Assembly: GCA_032209605.1 (NCBI GenBank)
Contig: JASFXZ010000037.1
Span: forward strand, 1,302,001 to 1,366,000
DNA: 64,000 nt
DNA from: Mactromeris polynyma
Taxonomy: Eukaryota; Mollusca; Bivalvia; Venerida; Mactridae
Direction: 5' to 3'
Below, piece by piece: positions 16,298-61,900 of the stretch. Under the pieces are notes generated by a model. That model saw only the letters and a program-made list of their open reading frames with translations. It did no database searches and was not told where the DNA came from. The position numbers and the translations under genes were made by a program. How positions within the stretch are numbered: position 1 is the stretch's first letter; each line of letters starts with the position of its first letter.

Positions 16298-16414
16298 GTC
16301 ATGTAGTTTGCAGTGTTGTACAATGTCGCAATACAAGAATTGTTTTTATTTATGTTTTTTTGTTTCAGTATAGATGTTTTTCTTTCTGTTGATATACAGT
16401 CGGACCTCATTTTT
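16298..16414 (+). repeat. Outer direct repeat, left copy
   Basis: 'catgtagttt ... acaat', then 'ttcagtatagatgtttttc' and 'tgatatacagtcggacct', resembles in order and orientation 23636-23745 (catgtagtttt, ttcagagtagatattttta, 'caatatactgtcagtcgcac'). Identity is roughly 70-75 percent by eye. The two copies bracket the 7.2 kb element. Confidence 0.5.
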
Positions 16415-16664
16415 ATGTCTCCCTTAGAGACACATTTTGTCTTTGACGTCTGTCTGTCCGTCAGTCCACTTTCAGCTTGTCAGCATTTCATCTCCTATAT
16501 AGTCCATGTGACAGACCGAATTTCATTACCAAACTGGTGAACAGATCCAACAATGATTTTCAGTTAGTTTGATATATAAGGAGTCCGAAATCAGTTGATG
16601 GACTTCTGGGTCACTTTGCCAAATGACATTTTGGCGGCCATTTTGGCGGCCATCTTTAAACTGT

Positions 16665-17324
16665 TTTTATAAAATGACTACCCACAGAAAAACTTTAATA
16701 ACTCCTCAACCAAACGAGCTATCTCCATGAAATATGGCTCAAAATGTTTGTGATACAATGTTACATTAGAATACATATATTTTTAATGTTGTTTTTATAT
16801 AATAGGCTCATAAGGAACATAACATTAAAGAAAATGTACTATTTTTAATGTATTTTTATAATATTTTCATAATTTTTCTTCTTAAACTTTTTTTTGAAAG
16901 CATATAAGGGTTCATAAAGGCACCTTAAATTCGCATAAGTTGTACCCAAAGACGAAATCAGAAAAAAACAAGTGAAAAAGATATGAACCGAGTCATGGGA
17001 AAGGTAATAGCAAGGAGTAGTGGTGACTCAAAATTAACAAAACGAAGAAGGAATAATGGTTGATCTTTGTCTCGTCTCTAGCTTACAACCTGTCTGACAA
17101 AGGTGACCTTACCAGGAAATAAAATTTCCAGACAGCATAGCTTGTAAGATCAAGGAGACACTCAAGCCCCCCTACCACAAACAAGGTGTCAACCACAGGG
17201 GGGGTGTTTTTTTGTGTTTTTTGTGTTTTTTTGTTTTTTTGTTGGTTTTTTGTTGGTTTTTTTGTGGGATTTTTAAAAAAAAAATCTGTAATGCATGTAC
17301 TTCTATTGTTATGGATGTTTTAGT
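16665..17324. other. 3' flank of the large ORF with A-rich tract
   Basis: Immediately after the stop on the minus strand (plus 17195-17285) is an A-rich run broken by single Cs, then the left inverted arm. No AATAAA was found close to the stop on the minus strand. No gene is seen here. Confidence 0.4.
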
Positions 17325-20300
17325 TCAGTCATTATCACTATCACTGTCATCTGGATTGTTGAATTGATCATCAACATCCACTTGCATATTTGAACAGTCC
17401 TGTAACTTGCAGGCGGGGGTGCAGCGCAAGCCATTTATTAAACATGGACACTCTTCATTACAGCGTCTAGAGCACTTGCAAGACATAAGTTCAAGTACAA
17501 CTTGTGGAGCTGGTGGTCTTGTTAGCCAACATATCACTAGTTGTCCATCTTCTACCTTCCACCCATGTCCATCAGTTGGATTTGGTACCTCTGGTGAATT
17601 ATTCAGACTTCTCTTCCAGATTGCAGCTTGGTAATTAGCACGATACGTATGTTGCATTAGTGCATCTCTACATGGCGGGAGTTGTCCAGATGAAAGTTCA
17701 CCTTTTCTTGATCGGAACATTTCATACCTGAGCCGGTTAACATCTGTAATCTTTGTATTCGAACAATACATGCTGCATGTAAATGCTTCTATAATTTTGA
17801 ACATATCCTCTGTGATACGCCATTCCTGTCCAAATACCTTGAACATGTCTCTAAATTCTATGTTTTTGCTGATTAAATTGACAGACTTTACCTTACCCTG
17901 GCCAGCAAAGGAGCTGACAGTATCACAACCTGTATATGCATAGACACCAATCAATGCACTACACACATCATGTCCAAGAGTTATACCAAGTTGTGACATA
18001 TCTATAAGTCTAATTGTATTCTTTTTACCTCTTCTCAATAGGATTCTTGAATCTATTTGTAAGTGTAAAGATAGTAGGAGAATGAACACGTCAGTATCCT
18101 CAGATATAACTACAACCTTGTGGTAGCTTTCTGATGCATGTTTCACATGGATCATCATTCTTGTGTCGGCTTCTTCGTGACTAGATTCCAGCTCATGAAT
18201 CTCTGTCACCTCATCCTTAGTTATACTAAAGCACTTCTTACCAGAGGTTACCATCAGTATTGTATTACCAAGCTGTTCTCTCTTGCGTTGCTCTTGCCAG
18301 TTTTCTGCCAAGAACATGGTAAGTTTTGATTTACTTTCAACGCTAGCTAGAACACGTTTCCAGTTTTTGATTCTGTGTCCTGCTTTTATTTGACTGAATA
18401 CAATTCCATCCTTTGAACCTCTATGTGCTCGCTCTGCAGTTTTTATGGATTGTTCTCGATATATGTCAAACACTACATCAATTCGTACACTCCCCCTACC
18501 ATCATGGAGAACTTTATTAAGTATAGCGTCTGATAATTCATCAAATGTCAAATTCTCACCATACACCATCTGTACTATTGCCATGGCATCAACTATTGTT
18601 GCACGAGTACCAGATGCACATTCAACATTTGCTATTTTTTTCTCCAGATACTTTCCTAATGTGGCTTTACATGTTTTTTTCATTGTTCCATCAGCATTAG
18701 CTAACGCCCATGGTTTCGGACCTAGGGGATATGCAAATACCTCTTTCATATCCAATTTTCTGTTTTGAGCAATCAAAAGCATTTGTCCGAAAACACGATT
18801 ATCTGATTTTAAAATCAATTCTTTGTTAGCTCCAGCTTTAATAACAGTATTTTTCTGTAAAGCACTGAATGTCTTTAATTTCAGTTTCTTGATAGGTTCA
18901 TAGAATCCTGCACCCGACTCCAATTTATTCATGTGACTTTTGAAAGCATCTGCGCCCTTGCAGTGAGCTTTCAGAAGATCATTTGTTATTGCCGGAGTTG
19001 CTGCAGCACCAGTAGATAAACATACAAGATCCGATGGCTGATTCGTAAAAGGATTTGTCCAATTGTTTTCAAGCATATCGACAATTGACATCACATCGGT
19101 TTCATCTCTCTTAATTCTTGATGGTTGAAGGTCGACATGACCAAGTCCTTCATTACTCTGCCCAGATATGGATATGAGCTCTCTCAGCCGTCTTAAAGCC
19201 TCAGCCCTGTGTTCTGCAGTCATGTAAAAGCGTGTCAATGCACTTTGCTTCAGACTGAAGCCTTTTGTACCACCAGCAGTTTGTGTGTCTTTGTTGACTG
19301 TTTCCTCTACAGTTTGGTCAATGGGAATTTTGGCAAAAGGATTTGCTTGCCCAAGCTGAACTGAGAACCCACCGTGAAGAAAATGCGCATGTAGGTCCGG
19401 GCAGGTCTCCTCTAATTGGGTCATCTGTGCATAATAAACGGGTAGATATCGGGAGTAATTAGTTTTGTCCATTGCAAAGCACCAAGGGAGCATTGCTTTT
19501 ATGCTTGCTAAATGAAGATACCAGTCACCACCTCGGTCTGCTCGTATCAGTCCAAGCAATATCTCAACCATGTCAATATACATCATCCAAAATGCTGCCA
19601 GGTGACCACTGTCATGTCTTAGGGCATTCAAGTAACAACGGAACAGGTGTAAAATTCTCTGACATGACTCTTCATTCATACAAGATGCAAGTGTTGCAGC
19701 AGAAGTATCATTGTGCATACTCTTCACATTTTGCAAAGTTGTATCTAAGCGTGGTAGATCTGCATTATGGTTCTTTTCCAACCATTCAATGAACCCTGTC
19801 CATGCAAGTCGCATTAGAGCTTCATATGTAAGCTTGTGCAGACGTACACCTCTGTTATATTGTTTTCCTTCTAACACTTTGTCAATCGAGCCTTCAGCTA
19901 TCACCCCTGATTCTACTGCAATATCACGAAGTCCTGCATCACGAAACATTTTTCCAATGACTGACAACATATTGCAAATAACATGGAAATTGCCCATCAT
20001 CAGCAGAATATTCTGGAATTTGTGTTTGTGTTTCCATGTAACTTCTGTTGCCTTAGCATATAGAGCCTGATCCATGATAACAGCAATCTTGTCAACACCT
20101 AGGTGTTGCTGTATGGAGATAGACTGTGTAAGTATTTCTTGGACTGTCGACAGTTCTGTGGCAGGTGCATTGATTGTAGGCAAATATCCAACCTTATCAG
20201 GATACACTTTCACATCATCTCTTGTTTTGATATTGAATCCAGTCCAAGAGCTCACCGTTTGGTTCACGGTGTCATGAAGTCTCGTGATTACCCACAGAAA

Positions 20301-21986
20301 GTTTTTCTGTTTAGCAATTTCAATTGCATCTGTTAGAGGTATGGATATGTCAGTACTCTTCAATGGGGGAGGATCTTCTCTCTTGGCCGAAATATAAATG
20401 GGTAGATGTTGCTCAGGCAGATTTAATGTACGCCTTTTATACTTTCTGTCCACGGTTGATATTTTTTCTGGCATACATGAATGTGATTGTGGCTGAACTA
20501 CAATTCCATTTACACGATGTGATGTACCTGCCCCAGTCAGTGTTTCTTCCAGTCTATCAATATTATCAAAAGCAAGCACTGTAGGAATACACACATTCGT
20601 CCATGAAGGTAATGCCGGTTTGTGTTCCTCTTCATTGCTCATTTTTTCTATGCACAATGATGTATCAATCTCCTGTAACCGTGTATATGAACACCCGTGG
20701 CCCAGGCGATTCAATGTCTTAATGAGTTCAACGTTGCCAGTCAATGTTTTGACAGCCCAAGGAAGAAGTATATGTTTTGGAGTTAGGATTCGTGAATTTG
20801 TCACAGCACTTACGATATCCTGACCAAATGAGAATGTCAGGCGTTGGACTTTGTCAGAGATAGCAGACTGACTACCACCAAGAAGTACTTCTAAGAATCG
20901 GACAAGACAGTCAGGCAGTTGAACATACTTGTCAGTCAACTCCTGTGGATTTGGTGGCCATGACTGCTCCTTAATTCCTTCTAGTATTTTATCTCTAACA
21001 ATTTGAGCCACATGATCTATTGAATGTTCAAATGTTTGGGTTTGTGTGTACGTTTCGAGTTTGTGTTTTAGGACAAGGAAGTCACAGGCAATGGATTCCA
21101 TTGATAGGTTGTAGGGTTTTACATAAATTTTGTTGCTAGTACCAGCTGTGAAAAAGTGTAAAGTGTCACCAAATTCAGACTCTAGATTTCTACGAATGTG
21201 GGTTTTAGTAGATTGTCGTATGTCTTCAATGCCATCATCAAGTAGCAGCTCTACAAGCTTTGAAGTTAGTTCGACTAAAGAAACAATACGGGGATTTGAG
21301 AAAAGATTGATACGGATGAATTTGTATAACAATTGTAATGCTTTGTTTTCAGCTGTGATATAGTCACATTTCTCGTCCATAACTCTGGAATCAGTTGTCA
21401 TTTGTTTAAGAGAGCATTTTGTGTACTTTTTATAGCAAGAAGCGTGGTAACAAGCCTCCGCTGCTACAATGTCACGTGCGGTAATGGAAAGTATCTTTGT
21501 GTCGCCTTTATGTGTTGCGGTCGACCTAAGTGTAAGGTCAGCGCGAAGATCGACTGCCTGAATCAATGTTTCTCGGGTCGATGTACCTTTCAAACATTTG
21601 TTTTTGCATTCACAAAAGATGCATAACCGATCATAAATACGTGTAGTACCTGAGGCACCTTGGCGTAAAGATTGTCTGAGACGTTCCTCAGTAGTCTCAT
21701 GTTCTATTGCACTTTCATTAGAAAGATGCTTAAGCCTATTCAATTCCTTTTTGTGGGTAAAATTCGACCTGCATTCCCGGTGATAATTTACATGAGGTAT
21801 AGCACTTGAATTTTCCACAAATAAATTCAATATAGGATTGAACAGCCTAATTTTTGCAGCTTCATAGAGTGAGAGCCATGAACTTATATCTTTCGGTTTG
21901 ACAAGTTCATACGATGGTGCATTCTTTTTACATATAATGCATGCAACATGCTCAGTTTTCAACCTTTTAACTGAACAGTCAGTCAT
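17325..21986 (-). CDS. Intronless 1553-aa protein: zinc modules, XPG/FEN-like nuclease and CXC motif
   Basis: Starts at ATG 21986, stops at 17325, with no intron. Residues 16-72 and 122-184 each form C-x2-C ... H-x2-C, two copies of one zinc module. A conserved-looking middle has FDNID (473-477), MDQALYAK (638-645) and GNFH (665-668), possible acidic sites of an RNase-H-like core, followed by helical sequence. Residues about 1268-1370 look like an XPG-I/FEN nuclease: HEEAD (1270-1274), ISEDTDVF (1294-1301, the D-x-D of FEN1) and YTGCD (1351-1355) followed by a GQGK helix-hairpin-helix-like turn. A C-terminal CXC (tesmin/TSO1-like) motif, C-x-C-x3-C-x3-C-x-C-x6-C-x3-C-x4-C, spans about 1503-1532, then an acidic tail. 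Related uncharacterised proteins occur in many aquatic animals as far as I know. The frame is fully open, so the copy is recent or under selection. Host gene versus transposase is unresolved. Confidence 0.85.
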   Translation of the reverse strand: MTDCSVKRLKTEHVACIICKKNAPSYELVKPKDISSWLSLYEAAKIRLFNPILNLFVENSSAIPHVNYHRECRSNFTHKKELNRLKHLSNESAIEHETTEERLRQSLRQGASGTTRIYDRLCIFCECKNKCLKGTSTRETLIQAVDLRADLTLRSTATHKGDTKILSITARDIVAAEACYHASCYKKYTKCSLKQMTTDSRVMDEKCDYITAENKALQLLYKFIRINLFSNPRIVSLVELTSKLVELLLDDGIEDIRQSTKTHIRRNLESEFGDTLHFFTAGTSNKIYVKPYNLSMESIACDFLVLKHKLETYTQTQTFEHSIDHVAQIVRDKILEGIKEQSWPPNPQELTDKYVQLPDCLVRFLEVLLGGSQSAISDKVQRLTFSFGQDIVSAVTNSRILTPKHILLPWAVKTLTGNVELIKTLNRLGHGCSYTRLQEIDTSLCIEKMSNEEEHKPALPSWTNVCIPTVLAFDNIDRLEETLTGAGTSHRVNGIVVQPQSHSCMPEKISTVDRKYKRRTLNLPEQHLPIYISAKREDPPPLKSTDISIPLTDAIEIAKQKNFLWVITRLHDTVNQTVSSWTGFNIKTRDDVKVYPDKVGYLPTINAPATELSTVQEILTQSISIQQHLGVDKIAVIMDQALYAKATEVTWKHKHKFQNILLMMGNFHVICNMLSVIGKMFRDAGLRDIAVESGVIAEGSIDKVLEGKQYNRGVRLHKLTYEALMRLAWTGFIEWLEKNHNADLPRLDTTLQNVKSMHNDTSAATLASCMNEESCQRILHLFRCYLNALRHDSGHLAAFWMMYIDMVEILLGLIRADRGGDWYLHLASIKAMLPWCFAMDKTNYSRYLPVYYAQMTQLEETCPDLHAHFLHGGFSVQLGQANPFAKIPIDQTVEETVNKDTQTAGGTKGFSLKQSALTRFYMTAEHRAEALRRLRELISISGQSNEGLGHVDLQPSRIKRDETDVMSIVDMLENNWTNPFTNQPSDLVCLSTGAAATPAITNDLLKAHCKGADAFKSHMNKLESGAGFYEPIKKLKLKTFSALQKNTVIKAGANKELILKSDNRVFGQMLLIAQNRKLDMKEVFAYPLGPKPWALANADGTMKKTCKATLGKYLEKKIANVECASGTRATIVDAMAIVQMVYGENLTFDELSDAILNKVLHDGRGSVRIDVVFDIYREQSIKTAERAHRGSKDGIVFSQIKAGHRIKNWKRVLASVESKSKLTMFLAENWQEQRKREQLGNTILMVTSGKKCFSITKDEVTEIHELESSHEEADTRMMIHVKHASESYHKVVVISEDTDVFILLLSLHLQIDSRILLRRGKKNTIRLIDMSQLGITLGHDVCSALIGVYAYTGCDTVSSFAGQGKVKSVNLISKNIEFRDMFKVFGQEWRITEDMFKIIEAFTCSMYCSNTKITDVNRLRYEMFRSRKGELSSGQLPPCRDALMQHTYRANYQAAIWKRSLNNSPEVPNPTDGHGWKVEDGQLVICWLTRPPAPQVVLELMSCKCSRRCNEECPCLINGLRCTPACKLQDCSNMQVDVDDQFNNPDDSDSDND

Positions 21987-22174
21987 TGCAATTATGAAAG
22001 CTTAGATAGAGTAAGTTTTCACAAGTGATTACAAGAATTGTCAAACATAACTGATTGCTAGCTTGATACGAGAGAAATAACAGTCTGATCTTAAATTGTG
22101 TTATCAGTATGCTCGCTATATTACGTCACATCCCGTGATTTCAGTGATGACGTAAATTTATCGATAGATCTATG

Positions 22175-22556
22175 TTTCGTGGTCGTAGCCGAGTGGTCTG
22201 TGTACTGGCATTGTAACTCGGCGGCCCGGCTTTACATCTCCGTCACGAGATATATACACTTCTATGAAAACTTGACAAATGTTGACTTTCTTCCACATGT
22301 GTTGAAGTTGCTGGCTTGTGGAAGGGTAGTTATAGATATAAGTACTGGTGATGGTACGGTCCAGGAGAACAAGGCCGCCGTATATGACTGAAACACTGTA
22401 GAAAAATGGGATAAAACCAAATTTAAAGCAAAACAAATCCTGATTTCTGACGAACAAACAGAACAGACAGACGGACGGTCGATCAGACGGACGAACAGAC
22501 GGATGGACGGATAAAACACCTATAGTCCCTTCCGGTTAAATACTGCTAGGGGACTA
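22175..22556 (+). repeat. tRNA-headed SINE, plus strand
   Basis: 'ggtcgtagccgagtggtct' is a tRNA-Leu/Ser-like A-box region and 'cggctttacatctccgtcac' stands where a B-box would be. A long conserved body follows ('gttgctggcttgtggaagg', 'ggtccaggagaacaaggcc', 'gaaacactgtagaaaaatgg'), then a 'gacggacgg' run and 'tagtcccttccggt' at the end. It lies inside the putative 7.2 kb element, upstream of its gene. Confidence 0.6.
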
Positions 22557-22904
22557 ATAAAGGCCTTACATGTACAAAAAACGGTTGTATCGGAGATTGT
22601 TGAAAACAGTCTATTTAAATTACTTAAAATATCTCTATTTATTTAATATCCGTTGGCGTAAGATCCCGACTTCTTTTAGGACTTCCTGGTGAAGATCTAT
22701 CGATGAAATGTATAATTTAGTTGCCTAGAAGTATCCTCTGCATATAACAAACAACAAATGGATAAATTCAATTCCCGATTTGATTTCAAAGAGAAAAAAT
22801 AATGAAAAAAATGAAAAAATATCAAAACTTTCTTAAAATATCAATAATTCTGAACTTATTATTTAATTACAACATAAGAATGGTTATTTCAACATATGTG
22901 GGAT

Positions 22905-23614
22905 TCAAGTACGAACATTTTAGTACAAGTTACAAGGCGATAGCTCTTGTTAGTGAGGAGTAATTAAGGTTTTTCCAACCCTTCCGATTGTTTAAAATAA
23001 TGGCGGCCATCTTTAAAGATGGCCGCCAAAAGGTCATTTGGCAAAGTGACCCAGAAGTCCATCAACTGATTTTGGATAGCTTAGATATCAAGCTAACCGA
23101 AAATCATTGTTGGATCTGTTCACCAATTTGGTAATGAACCTTCGAATTTCAGGACCTGGGACATGGACTAATACTGTTGGGTGAAATTCAGCCAAACTTC
23201 ATAGGATTAATCAACAACAAGGGTAGTTGTGCATCTTTGTTGTTTCGTTCTGCTCGGATAATGTTCACTGAGTTATGACCCTATGATGTGTTTATTCATA
23301 TTTATTTGTCCGCGCTTCATCTCCAATATTGCTGGTTGGCTTTCAGACAAACTTCACAGGATTGATAAGCATCAAGTGTAGTTGTGAATCCTTGTCGTTT
23401 CGTTCTGCTCAGATAATTTTCACTGAGTGATTGCCCTCTGTTTTTATGCATGTACAGTGTTTGTCTGCGCTTCATCTCAAATACGACTGGTTGGATTTCA
23501 ACAAAACTTCACAGGATTGATAAGCATAAAGTGTAGTTGGGAATCATTGTCGTTTCGTTTCGCTCAGATGATTTTTCACTGAATAATGGCCCTTTGATGT
23601 CATCGGGGAGACAT
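22905..23614. repeat. Right inverted arm with palindrome and subterminal tandem units
   Basis: The inner part mirrors 16500-16750. 23001-23028 is a perfect 28-bp palindrome (TGGCGGCCATCTTT/AAAGATGGCCGCCA). Outside it, units carrying 'cttcacaggattgataagca' and 'tgtcgtttcgttctgctcag' recur near 23195, 23348 and 23500, about 150 bp apart. The left arm lacks this tandem expansion. Confidence 0.6.
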
Positions 23615-23635: not shown

Positions 23636-23745
23636 CATGTAGTTTTAATTGTCATACAATATCTTTATTGTACATGTACTATTTCTTTCAGAGTAGATAT
23701 TTTTATTTCTGTCAATATACTGTCAGTCGCACCTTGTTTAATTGA
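23636..23745 (+). repeat. Outer direct repeat, right copy
   Basis: Counterpart of 16298-16414 in the same orientation; it starts about 20 bp beyond the right end of the putative transposon. Confidence 0.5.
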
Positions 23746-54427: not shown

Positions 54428-54637
54428 TATATCATTGTACTGTTCCTATTATCATTGTCTTGTTCTTACAGTTGTTGTTACTTTAATCAATAAGTGCAAG
54501 GGAGAGAACTTCAAACTGACCCTCACAAAGACATGTATGAGTTATTTATGAACTCCAAGGGAATGTCAAAATTATCAGACAATGCCTCCACTCTGTGTTA
54601 CTATGTAAGTTAATTAAAATGTGTTTTTTTATCGTAG

Positions 54638-55763
54638 CACCACCACCAGATTACTCTCAAGAGACTCTCCCAAGTGCACCACCTATGGGTGGGTATCCGG
54701 CACCTCCCCCGCAGCAAGGTTATCCCCAGGGTGGCTACCCTCAACAGGGCTATCCACAACAAGGTTATCAACAACAGGGCTATCCACAGCAACAAATGCG
54801 ACCACAAGCTGGCGCGACTGTTGTCGTGACAACACAGCCGACAGTAGTGGTACAGAGATTCCGTGAATCACCAGTTCATGTCCAGTGTCCATACTGCCAC
54901 GCTGATATTATCACCGCCACAGCATACGAGACGGGAACATTTGCTTGGTTAATGTGTGCATTGATGTGCATCTTTGGGTAAATTACTTATATGACATTGT
55001 ATACAAATGTATTAGTTATAATATTGGCTCATTATCAGGTTATCATTTGTTGGCTTGTTGAAAGGATGTCGTCGTGTTAAGGATGGATGGTTAGGTTTGA
55101 TCAACATTGCCTCATTTAATACTGCCCGACTTATGAATAACATGGTGTAGAATGTACCAGGCAGGGGGATCCAGGATTTGGTCGGGGGGGGGGGGCGTAA
55201 CTTTTTGGTTTTGCTCCAGCCTTATAGAACGGCAATGACTGTGTTTTATTCTTTGTTTTTAAGTTATTGAACATAAAACCAATTCGTCATGATAGAATAT
55301 GATGCTACAATAAATCAGAATTGCTTATTTGAAAATCTTATAATTAAAGATCTCCGTTTATTTTCGTATTTATACTCAAGACATACAAAAAGTCATGAGG
55401 TTGGGAATTTTAGGGGGGGGGGGCGCGGTGCCTGGTGTCTTATCAAATACAGATATACAGACACTTGAAAATGTCTTATTACATGTTGTTTCATTATATA
55501 GAGGCTATTTAATCACATTTCATTACAATTTAAAGTGTTACTTTAATGACTGAAAATGCATAATCAATGAATGTACATTATCTTACGTGTTAACAGTGTC
55601 ATGTTTACGCCCAAGATAAGTGGATATATATGTAATTGTTTATCACCATTGCAGGTTAGATGCAGGCTGTTGTTTGATTCCATTTTGCTGCGACTCCTGT
55701 AAAGATGTTTCACACAGCTGTCCCAACTGTAGACAGGTGATCCAAAGATACAGTCGAATGTAA
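54638..55763 (+). CDS. LITAF-like: Second LITAF-domain protein, start exon not identified
   Basis: Exons 54638-54977 and 55655-55763 (GT-AG) give 149 visible residues. The frame enters with one base from an upstream exon after 'tttatcgtag'; the first coding exon, with its ATG, was not found. The N-terminal part has PPDY (PPxY type) and PSAP (the TSG101-binding P[T/S]AP motif), then five to six GYPQQ-like repeats. The LITAF domain has CPYC, a hydrophobic stretch ([13 protein letters not shown]), and HSCPNC with a C-terminal RYSRM like the upstream paralogue. The intron splits the domain at the same codon and phase as in the upstream gene, and both last exons are 109 nt, proving paralogy. Expected role: late-endosome membrane adaptor linking ubiquitin ligases and ESCRT. 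An ATG at 54619 could start the frame only if the acceptor is not used. A poly(A) signal is at 56727-56732. Confidence 0.85.
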
Positions 55764-58907: not shown

Positions 58908-61900
58908 TCAAGCTCTTCCACTGCGAGCCTGTTCAATTTTACGTCGTACTTGATTACAATGGAGCGTAAGTTCAGCGTGTTGCATCTTAAGTTGTTCAAG
59001 TTCATCTCTTAAGTTGTCGCCTTCATCTTTACGCTCTTCAAAGTCTCTAAGTAAAGATTCATTTCCTAAAAGTCCACAGTTTTGTTTCAGTCTTTGATTG
59101 TCTATCCTTAAAGCATCTCTAGCTTGTTTGGTTCTGGATAAAACATCTCGTTTCTGAAATACAATAAAATTGAAACCATGACTGTGACAAACAAACCATT
59201 GTAAAACTCGAAAGCATTATAATGCAAGAAATCAATTGACAAACATAAATTCACACATTAAGACATTGATAGAAATGAGACAATAACCAGATGCCCAGAT
59301 GACTGTATTGTGCACCAAATTTTGTTTAAATTCATTTAAAATTGAAAAAGTTGTACATCCATATGGAAAGTGTCGGATCAGAGCTATCAGTTTTGGAAAT
59401 TTCATTGAAGCCAAGGAATTATTTTTGGGGAGGAAGCAGGCTGCAGGAAACCTTCTAATGCACATGGTTCAAAAGTCTCTACATGGGGGGGGTCATCATT
59501 TGAATAATTTTTACTGCTGGGAGATGTCCGACTTGGTTATATTGTATTAAGATGTTCTGGAGAAAAATCTACGGGGAACAACGACATGAGCTAAAATTAC
59601 TGTAATTTATTGAGAGGAAATATTGTGACAGCCAATTACCTGTCCCACATCAGCCTCCACTTCTCGTAGATTTCGCTTTTGTACTTGATTCTCGGCTTGC
59701 ACATACTGTAATTTCTCTTTTAAGTGAGTTAACACTTGTACTGTACTTGTAATCTTCTTACGTAACTTCAGTAATTCCTGAAATATAAAATTGACGAAGT
59801 CTATGAGCAAAGAAATGCTTAACATCATAGAAACCCTCGCAGCACTTTGATTCCACTTGCATTACATTCACACGCTGCTTGATAACACAACCAACTAACG
59901 ACATTCTGTAAATATTTCTACATTATACAAAGCTTGCCCGACTTTCTGTACCATCAGAACATTTTGATGGTTTGTTTAATATCTAAGATCATAGGCTTAG
60001 TGGACTGGTAGAATTGGAGTACATGAACACATTGTTATTGGTAGAGGCATGGCCCAACGTATCAGTCTTAGAACGTTAAATGCCAAGGATCAAGCCTTTG
60101 GAACATGACTCCTGATACATGATATAGAAAATATTAACAGAATATCATTCAAAGAATTGCATAGATTTAAAGTAACCAGTAATGTACAAATATTAACCCA
60201 GGCTGCAATACAAGCGGAAATATTACCTCATTTCTTTCTTCAATCTTTTCATTGTATGTCTGGTTCTCAATCTTCAGTTGTTCAAAATCAATTAAATGTA
60301 AACCTTCAGCCAGCTCCTCCTGAAATGTAATTTATTTCAATTGTTAATCACAAAGTATTGTCTTATTTGAAAAGTCTAGTTTAAGAAAATCATAATTGCT
60401 TGACAAGTAGTGAAGTAAGTAATGCAGTTCATTTACAACAAGTTTGTCAGGCATATTATGGTATGTTGAATATCTGTGAAACATTAAAGAGTGTATTAAC
60501 ATTCACCTACACAAGCATGCAAGTCGTCTTAAGACTAGTATGTATGTAGTAAGTAGATTTGTGTTTATTTTTTACGAAAAATATCAAACAAACAAACAAA
60601 CAAACCTTTGATTTCAATTGCTGTTCTTTCTTTTTCAGTTTGTTTTTCAGTTTAATATTTTCCAATCTGACGTTGATGACTTCCCCTTCCTTTCTGGCTT
60701 CTCCAGCCAAGTATTGTTCAATATCCTGTAAGATAAAACAAGTCTTAGAGTTGTGGATAAGTACATTCATAACCATGGAGACAAGACATTAAAGAGACAT
60801 TATGTTCAACAACAAAAACGGATAAATTAACAATTTCTTGAGTACATTGTAATGATTTTGATCAAACATTGTTGCTTACAAATTTTGTAAGCAACAATGT
60901 TTGATCAAAATCATTACATACTTTATCCTTTTTGAAGTGTTTCTAACTAAAATACTTAATACATTTTGTCACAATTTAGTTCTTAAAATGAAGCTTTTAA
61001 TTATTTTTAGAAACTGTACACAAATATATATATATATTCTAATGGTTATAGATTATACCGCAATTCAAACTTTACATGCATAACATGAATCAATATACAT
61101 ATTAAAATCTGGAATTCGCTAAAGATGAGTTTTTACCAGGGGTACAAACAAAATTTAAGATCTGCTGAAGTTCAGTCAGTGGTTAAATCCTGTCTTTGTT
61201 TCCATTGCGATTCCAGCACAACGTTAATGGTATATTGTTGTTAGTACTGCAGGATTAGAGGGGAAAATCCACATTTATAACTATCCGGAGTATGTCTATT
61301 AATAATATCATTTTCAGTTATGATATGTACAGCAGGTAATTTGAAACCTACCTTTGGTGGAATAGGTCTGCCTGATCGACTGTTTAATGCATTAAGAGCA
61401 ACTTGTTTCTTGAACTCCATAAACTTTCTACGTTCATCATCCACTCGTTCCTTTCTATCCTCACAACGAGACTTAAGCTCCTGTATTTGATGTTTATAAT
61501 TATCACGTTCCTGCATATCTTGTCGTCGGAGATCTTCTAACTGAGCTGAAAGAAAAAAGCAGAAACATGAGGAGTTTTATGAAAGATGAACTAAATTGTT
61601 AACAAGTTCGAAAGTTTTGCACAAAAATAAAAGAATGGATAAAAATAAATGTTTTTTTAATTAAACATTTTCCAAATTCCCTCTATGAATTATAAACAGG
61701 CAAAAATTAGCATCTCCCAAGGAATGTTGATTAACTGAATTTGTGTACATGCACAATTGTCCTATAATGGTGTGTAATGATTTATAATGCGTAGAATGTT
61801 TTGTTAACTTTTTATTTCATTCACATACATGTGTTTGAATATTAATTTCATTTTAAGATCAGTAATTTCATCTTATCACACACAACTTCCACATTTTACG

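Follow-up and report, generated by a model that had tools for sequence, protein, structure and literature searches.

Transposons of the Academ superfamily differ in what they encode: in the IS481EU paper (PMC10045372), AcademH elements have target duplications of 9–10 bp and AcademX elements of 3–4 bp, lengths that are tied to the encoded helicase and nuclease, respectively. A survey of bivalves (PMC10294476) places Academ third by number among the DDE/D superfamilies, with 100 curated elements whose mean length of 5565 bp is among the longest. For the Kyakuja-Dileera-Zisupton (KDZ) group, duplications of 8 bp in Zisupton-1_PGr and 7 bp in two Kyakuja families are given (PMC12730594). Tn7 divides its cleavage between two proteins, TnsA for the 5′ ends and TnsB for the 3′ ends (PMC9527255). 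Our search of the literature for Academ or DNA transposons together with XPG found nothing to the point. We take the AcademX nuclease to be of the XPG type.

Here we analyzed a window of 64,000 nucleotides from the bivalve Mactromeris polynyma (contig JASFXZ010000037.1). The window holds one element which, with a probability of roughly 85%, is a potentially autonomous cut-and-paste DNA transposon of AcademX, the nuclease-bearing lineage of Academ.

Gene and domain organization

The open frame of 1553 codons that an earlier note had claimed for this DNA is present (Table 1). It extends from its ATG to a stop codon and lies on the minus strand; the note gave no strand. Computed from the local base composition, the log10 probability of so many open codons is about −47, and the plus-strand reading of the same interval contains 89 stops. 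The protein matched no family in Pfam or NCBIfam, nor any PDB sequence in single and profile searches. Structure predictions covered parts of the protein after residue 419.

Table 1. Coordinates of the transposon and its parts in the window
Feature	Position	Strand	Basis
Whole transposon, 6671 bp, one long gene	16500..23170	-	Termini, target duplication, rebuilt empty site
Target site duplication ATA, left	16497..16499	.	3-bp direct duplication
Target site duplication ATA, right	23171..23173	.	3-bp direct duplication
Inner terminal inverted repeat, left arm, 123 nt, 92%	16522..16644	+	Repeat search
Inner terminal inverted repeat, right arm	23016..23138	-	Repeat search
1553-codon gene	17325..21986	-	Zinc modules, DDE transposase, EXO1/FEN1-type nuclease, CXC; 126 relatives at E ≤ 0.001
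Zinc module 1 (C16, C19, H69, C72), residues 16–72	21771..21941	-	Alignment
Zinc module 2 (C122, C125, H181, C184), residues 122–184	21435..21623	-	Alignment
DDE transposase domain, ~residues 441–940	19167..20666	-	Predicted fold and conserved acids
FEN/XPG/EXO1-type nuclease domain, ~residues 1107–1470	17577..18668	-	Predicted fold and conserved acids
CXC (tesmin/TSO1-like) eight-cysteine motif, residues 1503–1531	17394..17480	-	Alignment and names of relatives

The zinc modules that had been proposed correspond to two CxxC...HxxC sets. In an alignment of 154 rows, the four positions of module 2 are near-invariant (152, 152, 154 and 154 rows), and those of module 1 are conserved in 139, 114, 146 and 149 rows, its position 19 being alignment-dependent (in another alignment, of 67 rows, 24 have C there and 36 have H). 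Each of the eight cysteines of the CXC motif is retained in 148–151 of the 154 rows; Academ elements have an eight-cysteine zinc finger, to which the cysteines of residues 1503–1531 might correspond.

The transposase part is predicted to have an RNase-H-type core, in which a large helical insertion separates the second acid from the third. The candidate catalytic acids, D474 (or D477), D639 and D890 (or E894), are identical in 153–154 of the 154 aligned rows. In the structure comparison the best nine rows came from three transposases (P element, ISCth4 and Hermes), and Foldseek alone gave no match for this part at E ≤ 0.001. The P element, hAT (Hermes) and RAG1-Transib families share the core and the placement of the insertion with the window protein, but they are not matched by sequence (PDB), and we know of no XPG-type domain in any of them. 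DUF6589 was the one Pfam family seen in six relatives scanned; it turned up in three of them (P0002, P0005 and P0119; best E 1.9e-5), always below the cut-off; the weak matches in P0002 and P0005 fall within the transposase part. This family may represent part of a DDE transposase; none of the papers searched for its name mentions it.

Towards the C-terminus, the strings HEEAD (1270–1274), ISEDTDVF and YTGCDTVSSFAGQGK are found in the order in which they had been described, followed by the CXC motif. They contribute five of seven nuclease acids, D1133, D1174, E1272, D1274, D1297, D1299 (the last two in ISEDTDVF) and D1355, all of which are identical in 154 of 154 rows, so that the proposed check for substitutions in homologues found none. 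K1182, R1189 and K1365 are conserved as well; YTGCDTVSSFAGQGK contains D1355 and K1365, and the GxGK turn spans 1362–1365. The predicted fold, for which comparison with FEN1 and GEN1 had been suggested, is EXO1/FEN1-like. Together, this fold and the full set of seven acids point to membership of the FEN/XPG/EXO1 nuclease superfamily, the equivalence of the residues with its active site being drawn from order, spacing and strand positions rather than from a printed residue alignment. The earlier note had named the right type of nuclease, but the domain starts well upstream of residue 1265, at about 1107, and takes in D1133 and D1174 as extra catalytic-type acids. The ExE/ExD pair is there, in the exact form E1272-A-D1274. 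Members of the superfamily cut flap, bubble or recessed-end DNA, and this candidate nuclease may do so too.

Several differences set it apart from the known members. Unlike the EXO1, FEN1, XPG and GEN1 nucleases (and XRN1/2), it is fused behind a transposase; identity is 8–18% in the 50 rows of the structure comparison, with no PDB sequence match. Since D1174 and D1299 are 125 residues apart here, compared with 95 in FEN1 (D86–D181), the domain has extra sequence between them.

Element ends and insertion site

The inverted arms given by the repeat search were also recovered by blastn (92% over 124). Beyond the arms comes a stretch in which the two ends differ, 12 nt long on the left side and 22 nt on the right side; after it they match again, in 10-bp perfect inverted termini, TAGTCCATGT, which form the pair 16500/23170 and are flanked by the ATA duplication. 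A script comparing 16470–16529 with 23135–23199 returned ten 7-mer pairs, one with a 3-bp duplication, one with 2 bp and eight with none. To the right of the element, the flank consists of a tandem array with a repeat unit of 155 bp (23187–23600, 2.7 copies). When the flanks were joined with one ATA kept, they aligned without gaps across the join to two neighbouring array units; in the left flank the final 24 nt alone match the unit (20/24; E 0.007 by itself). We conclude that the 6671-bp element inserted into 155-bp-unit sequence and duplicated 3 bp, the support from the rebuilt site being real but short.

Six other frames of at least 100 aa between the ends were not taken for genes: five plus-strand frames lie inside the gene, and the sixth, on the minus strand (22173–22535), starts in a short repeat. 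The motif GGCGGCCAT is present where each repeat ends on its inner side, on the left as two direct copies (16633 and 16645) and on the right, in the counterpart (23001–23031) of 16633–16660, as a palindrome (23002 and, inverted, 23019). These copies are possible binding sites.

Relatives and their distribution

Protein searches retrieved 126 relatives at E ≤ 0.001 in the first instance, 542 from a distant family member and 207 at E ≤ 0.01 with the transposase part (residues 440–960); the best 120 of each comprise at least 269 different proteins. Source names among the matches listed include Nymphon, Oculina, Actinostola, Branchiostoma, Mercenaria, Nucella, Patella and Capitella as well as Epinephelus, Eleginops, Merluccius and Myxine, and several matches listed carry the name 'Tesmin/TSO1-like CXC domain-containing'. 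The closest named relative among them comes from a sea spider (75% over 1085 columns); horizontal transfer is only a possibility. In a tree built from 32 chosen rows, some of them partial proteins, the window protein groups with P0001 and one Nymphon protein (support 100/100) and Mercenaria with a coral (92/85); Nymphon appears in two places, Branchiostoma in three, and two fishes group with lancelets. The deep part of the tree is unsure, P0113 and P0115 having very long branches. This 32-row tree ignores host phyla, as is the case for mobile elements.

These results also bear on whether the gene has been domesticated by the host, which the earlier note had offered as the alternative to a transposase. 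A single long intact frame and a single copy in the window would agree with a host gene derived from a transposon, but both inverted termini and the 3-bp duplication are intact beside the tandem repeat, and the relatives are numerous and scattered without regard to host phyla. We consider domestication very improbable, and of the two readings only the transposase was upheld.

Scans of genome and viral collections for close relatives found none. An alignment-based scan found no contig in the viral collection and two prokaryote-labelled contigs in the genome collection. One (L001; JAJRVU010000273.1, 1–4401), under a Planctomycetota MAG label, carries the gene for a relative of 1466 aa (38% in its best segment). 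The contig opens within the protein, and no inverted repeat showed up when it was compared by blastn with its own complement. It is most likely animal DNA misbinned into a bacterial MAG. The other (L002), from a Bathymodiolus symbiont assembly, has a relative at 27% and may likewise be animal DNA in a bacterial assembly. Three matches listed in the first search, a Nymphon 'DDX46' protein with a helicase domain (P0111, 16% of the query covered), one with an ABC-transporter name (P0112) and one with other Pfam domains (P0028), were taken for host gene models merged with pieces of the element. Annotators should be warned that relatives are filed as 'hypothetical', as 'Tesmin/TSO1-like CXC domain-containing' or on bacterial contigs in some genome and MAG records.

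Classification

The claim of a transposase with its own structure-specific nuclease is supported by the DDE-like fold, the nuclease fold, the termini and the 3-bp duplication. The element fits a kind already named in animals, Academ, of which it is a good example and not a new one. With AcademX it shares a DDE/D transposase domain, an encoded nuclease, terminal inverted repeats, great length and a target duplication of 3–4 bp (ATA, 3 bp, in the one copy examined), and no feature tested differs. AcademH, in print a part of the same superfamily, has a helicase and 9–10 bp duplications, against 3 bp here. The 1553-aa protein has no Pfam match at E ≤ 1, to a helicase or otherwise, and the six relatives scanned by Pfam have no helicase; the precomputed domain column for the best 120 of 207 matches to the transposase part also had none, although this does not establish that helicase-bearing relatives are absent. 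Because the features of AcademX fit, and the duplication lengths of AcademH and of the named KDZ families do not, filing as AcademX is probable, the placement being by described features.

Another CXC-bearing DDE group, for example KDZ, or an unnamed superfamily that acquired an XPG-type nuclease, appears improbable. CXC motifs are known in KDZ proteins too; however, the 3-bp duplication departs from the 8 bp of Zisupton-1_PGr and the 7 bp of the two Kyakuja families.

Proposed mechanism

In the transposition of this AcademX-like element, the zinc modules and the CXC motif would bind the element ends, and the DDE site would nick the 3′ ends and link them to the target at positions 3 bp apart. 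Cutting or trimming of the 5′ strand, the one not transferred, would fall to the nuclease. It could act on the donor ends, in the manner of Tn7 TnsA, or on 5′ flaps once the ends have been joined to the target. A DDE site that nicks only the 3′ ends needs another way to cut the second strand; the fused EXO1/FEN1-type site is a natural candidate for this step, or for trimming 5′ flaps after joining. Action on the 5′ strand, with second-strand cutting and flap trimming taken together, seems likely to us; second-strand cutting taken singly falls somewhat short of even odds. Since the nuclease acids match the candidate transposase acids in invariance, the nuclease seems to be required for spread.

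The nuclease could instead act after integration only, as the element's own FEN1 for 5′ flaps or gaps at the new junctions and not as the second-strand cutter of excision, a role that makes up half of our joint estimate for the 5′ strand. A FEN1/XPG-like fold with K1182, R1189 and K1365 conserved agrees with this, and a structure-specific nuclease suits flaps, but host FEN1 could serve, and the strict conservation of the copy that the element carries hints at an earlier step for which it is required; we find this restricted role rather doubtful. Less likely again, though possible, is EXO1-like resection that directs how the donor gap is repaired (by copying the element back, for instance) or GEN1-like junction cutting in a replicative route; likeness of fold does not tell these activities apart, the rows listed sharing one fold.

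The likeness to Tn7 TnsA and TnsB, two active sites with one per strand of the end, is by analogy only. Tn7 uses two proteins, and its nuclease has a fold different from the XPG type. Tentatively, one eukaryotic polypeptide may hold both strand-cutting sites of a cut-and-paste transposon, DDE for the 3′ strand and EXO1/FEN1-type for the 5′ strand. It would then match TnsA/TnsB in a single protein, the second nuclease being unrelated, and this would account for duplications of 3–4 bp in the nuclease lineage as opposed to 9–10 bp in the helicase lineage. With the ends of a complete element defined and the family aligned, the role of an XPG-type enzyme in DNA transposition becomes testable.

Other features of the window

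The inverted motifs ATGTCTCCC and GGGAGACAT (16415–16423 and 23606–23614) occur only these two times in the window and enclose both the transposon and the 155-bp array; they are perhaps the bounds of an older non-autonomous element, later hit by this transposon. Beyond them lies a 43-bp direct repeat (16359–16401 and 23682–23724, 81% identical) with a pyrimidine tract and AG in both copies. Elsewhere in the window, two of the ten frames scanned have Pfam matches that suggest an animal-like host, one as a LITAF-like zinc ribbon (54541–54978, plus strand) and the other as a CCDC113/CCDC96 coiled coil (58911–59216, minus strand).
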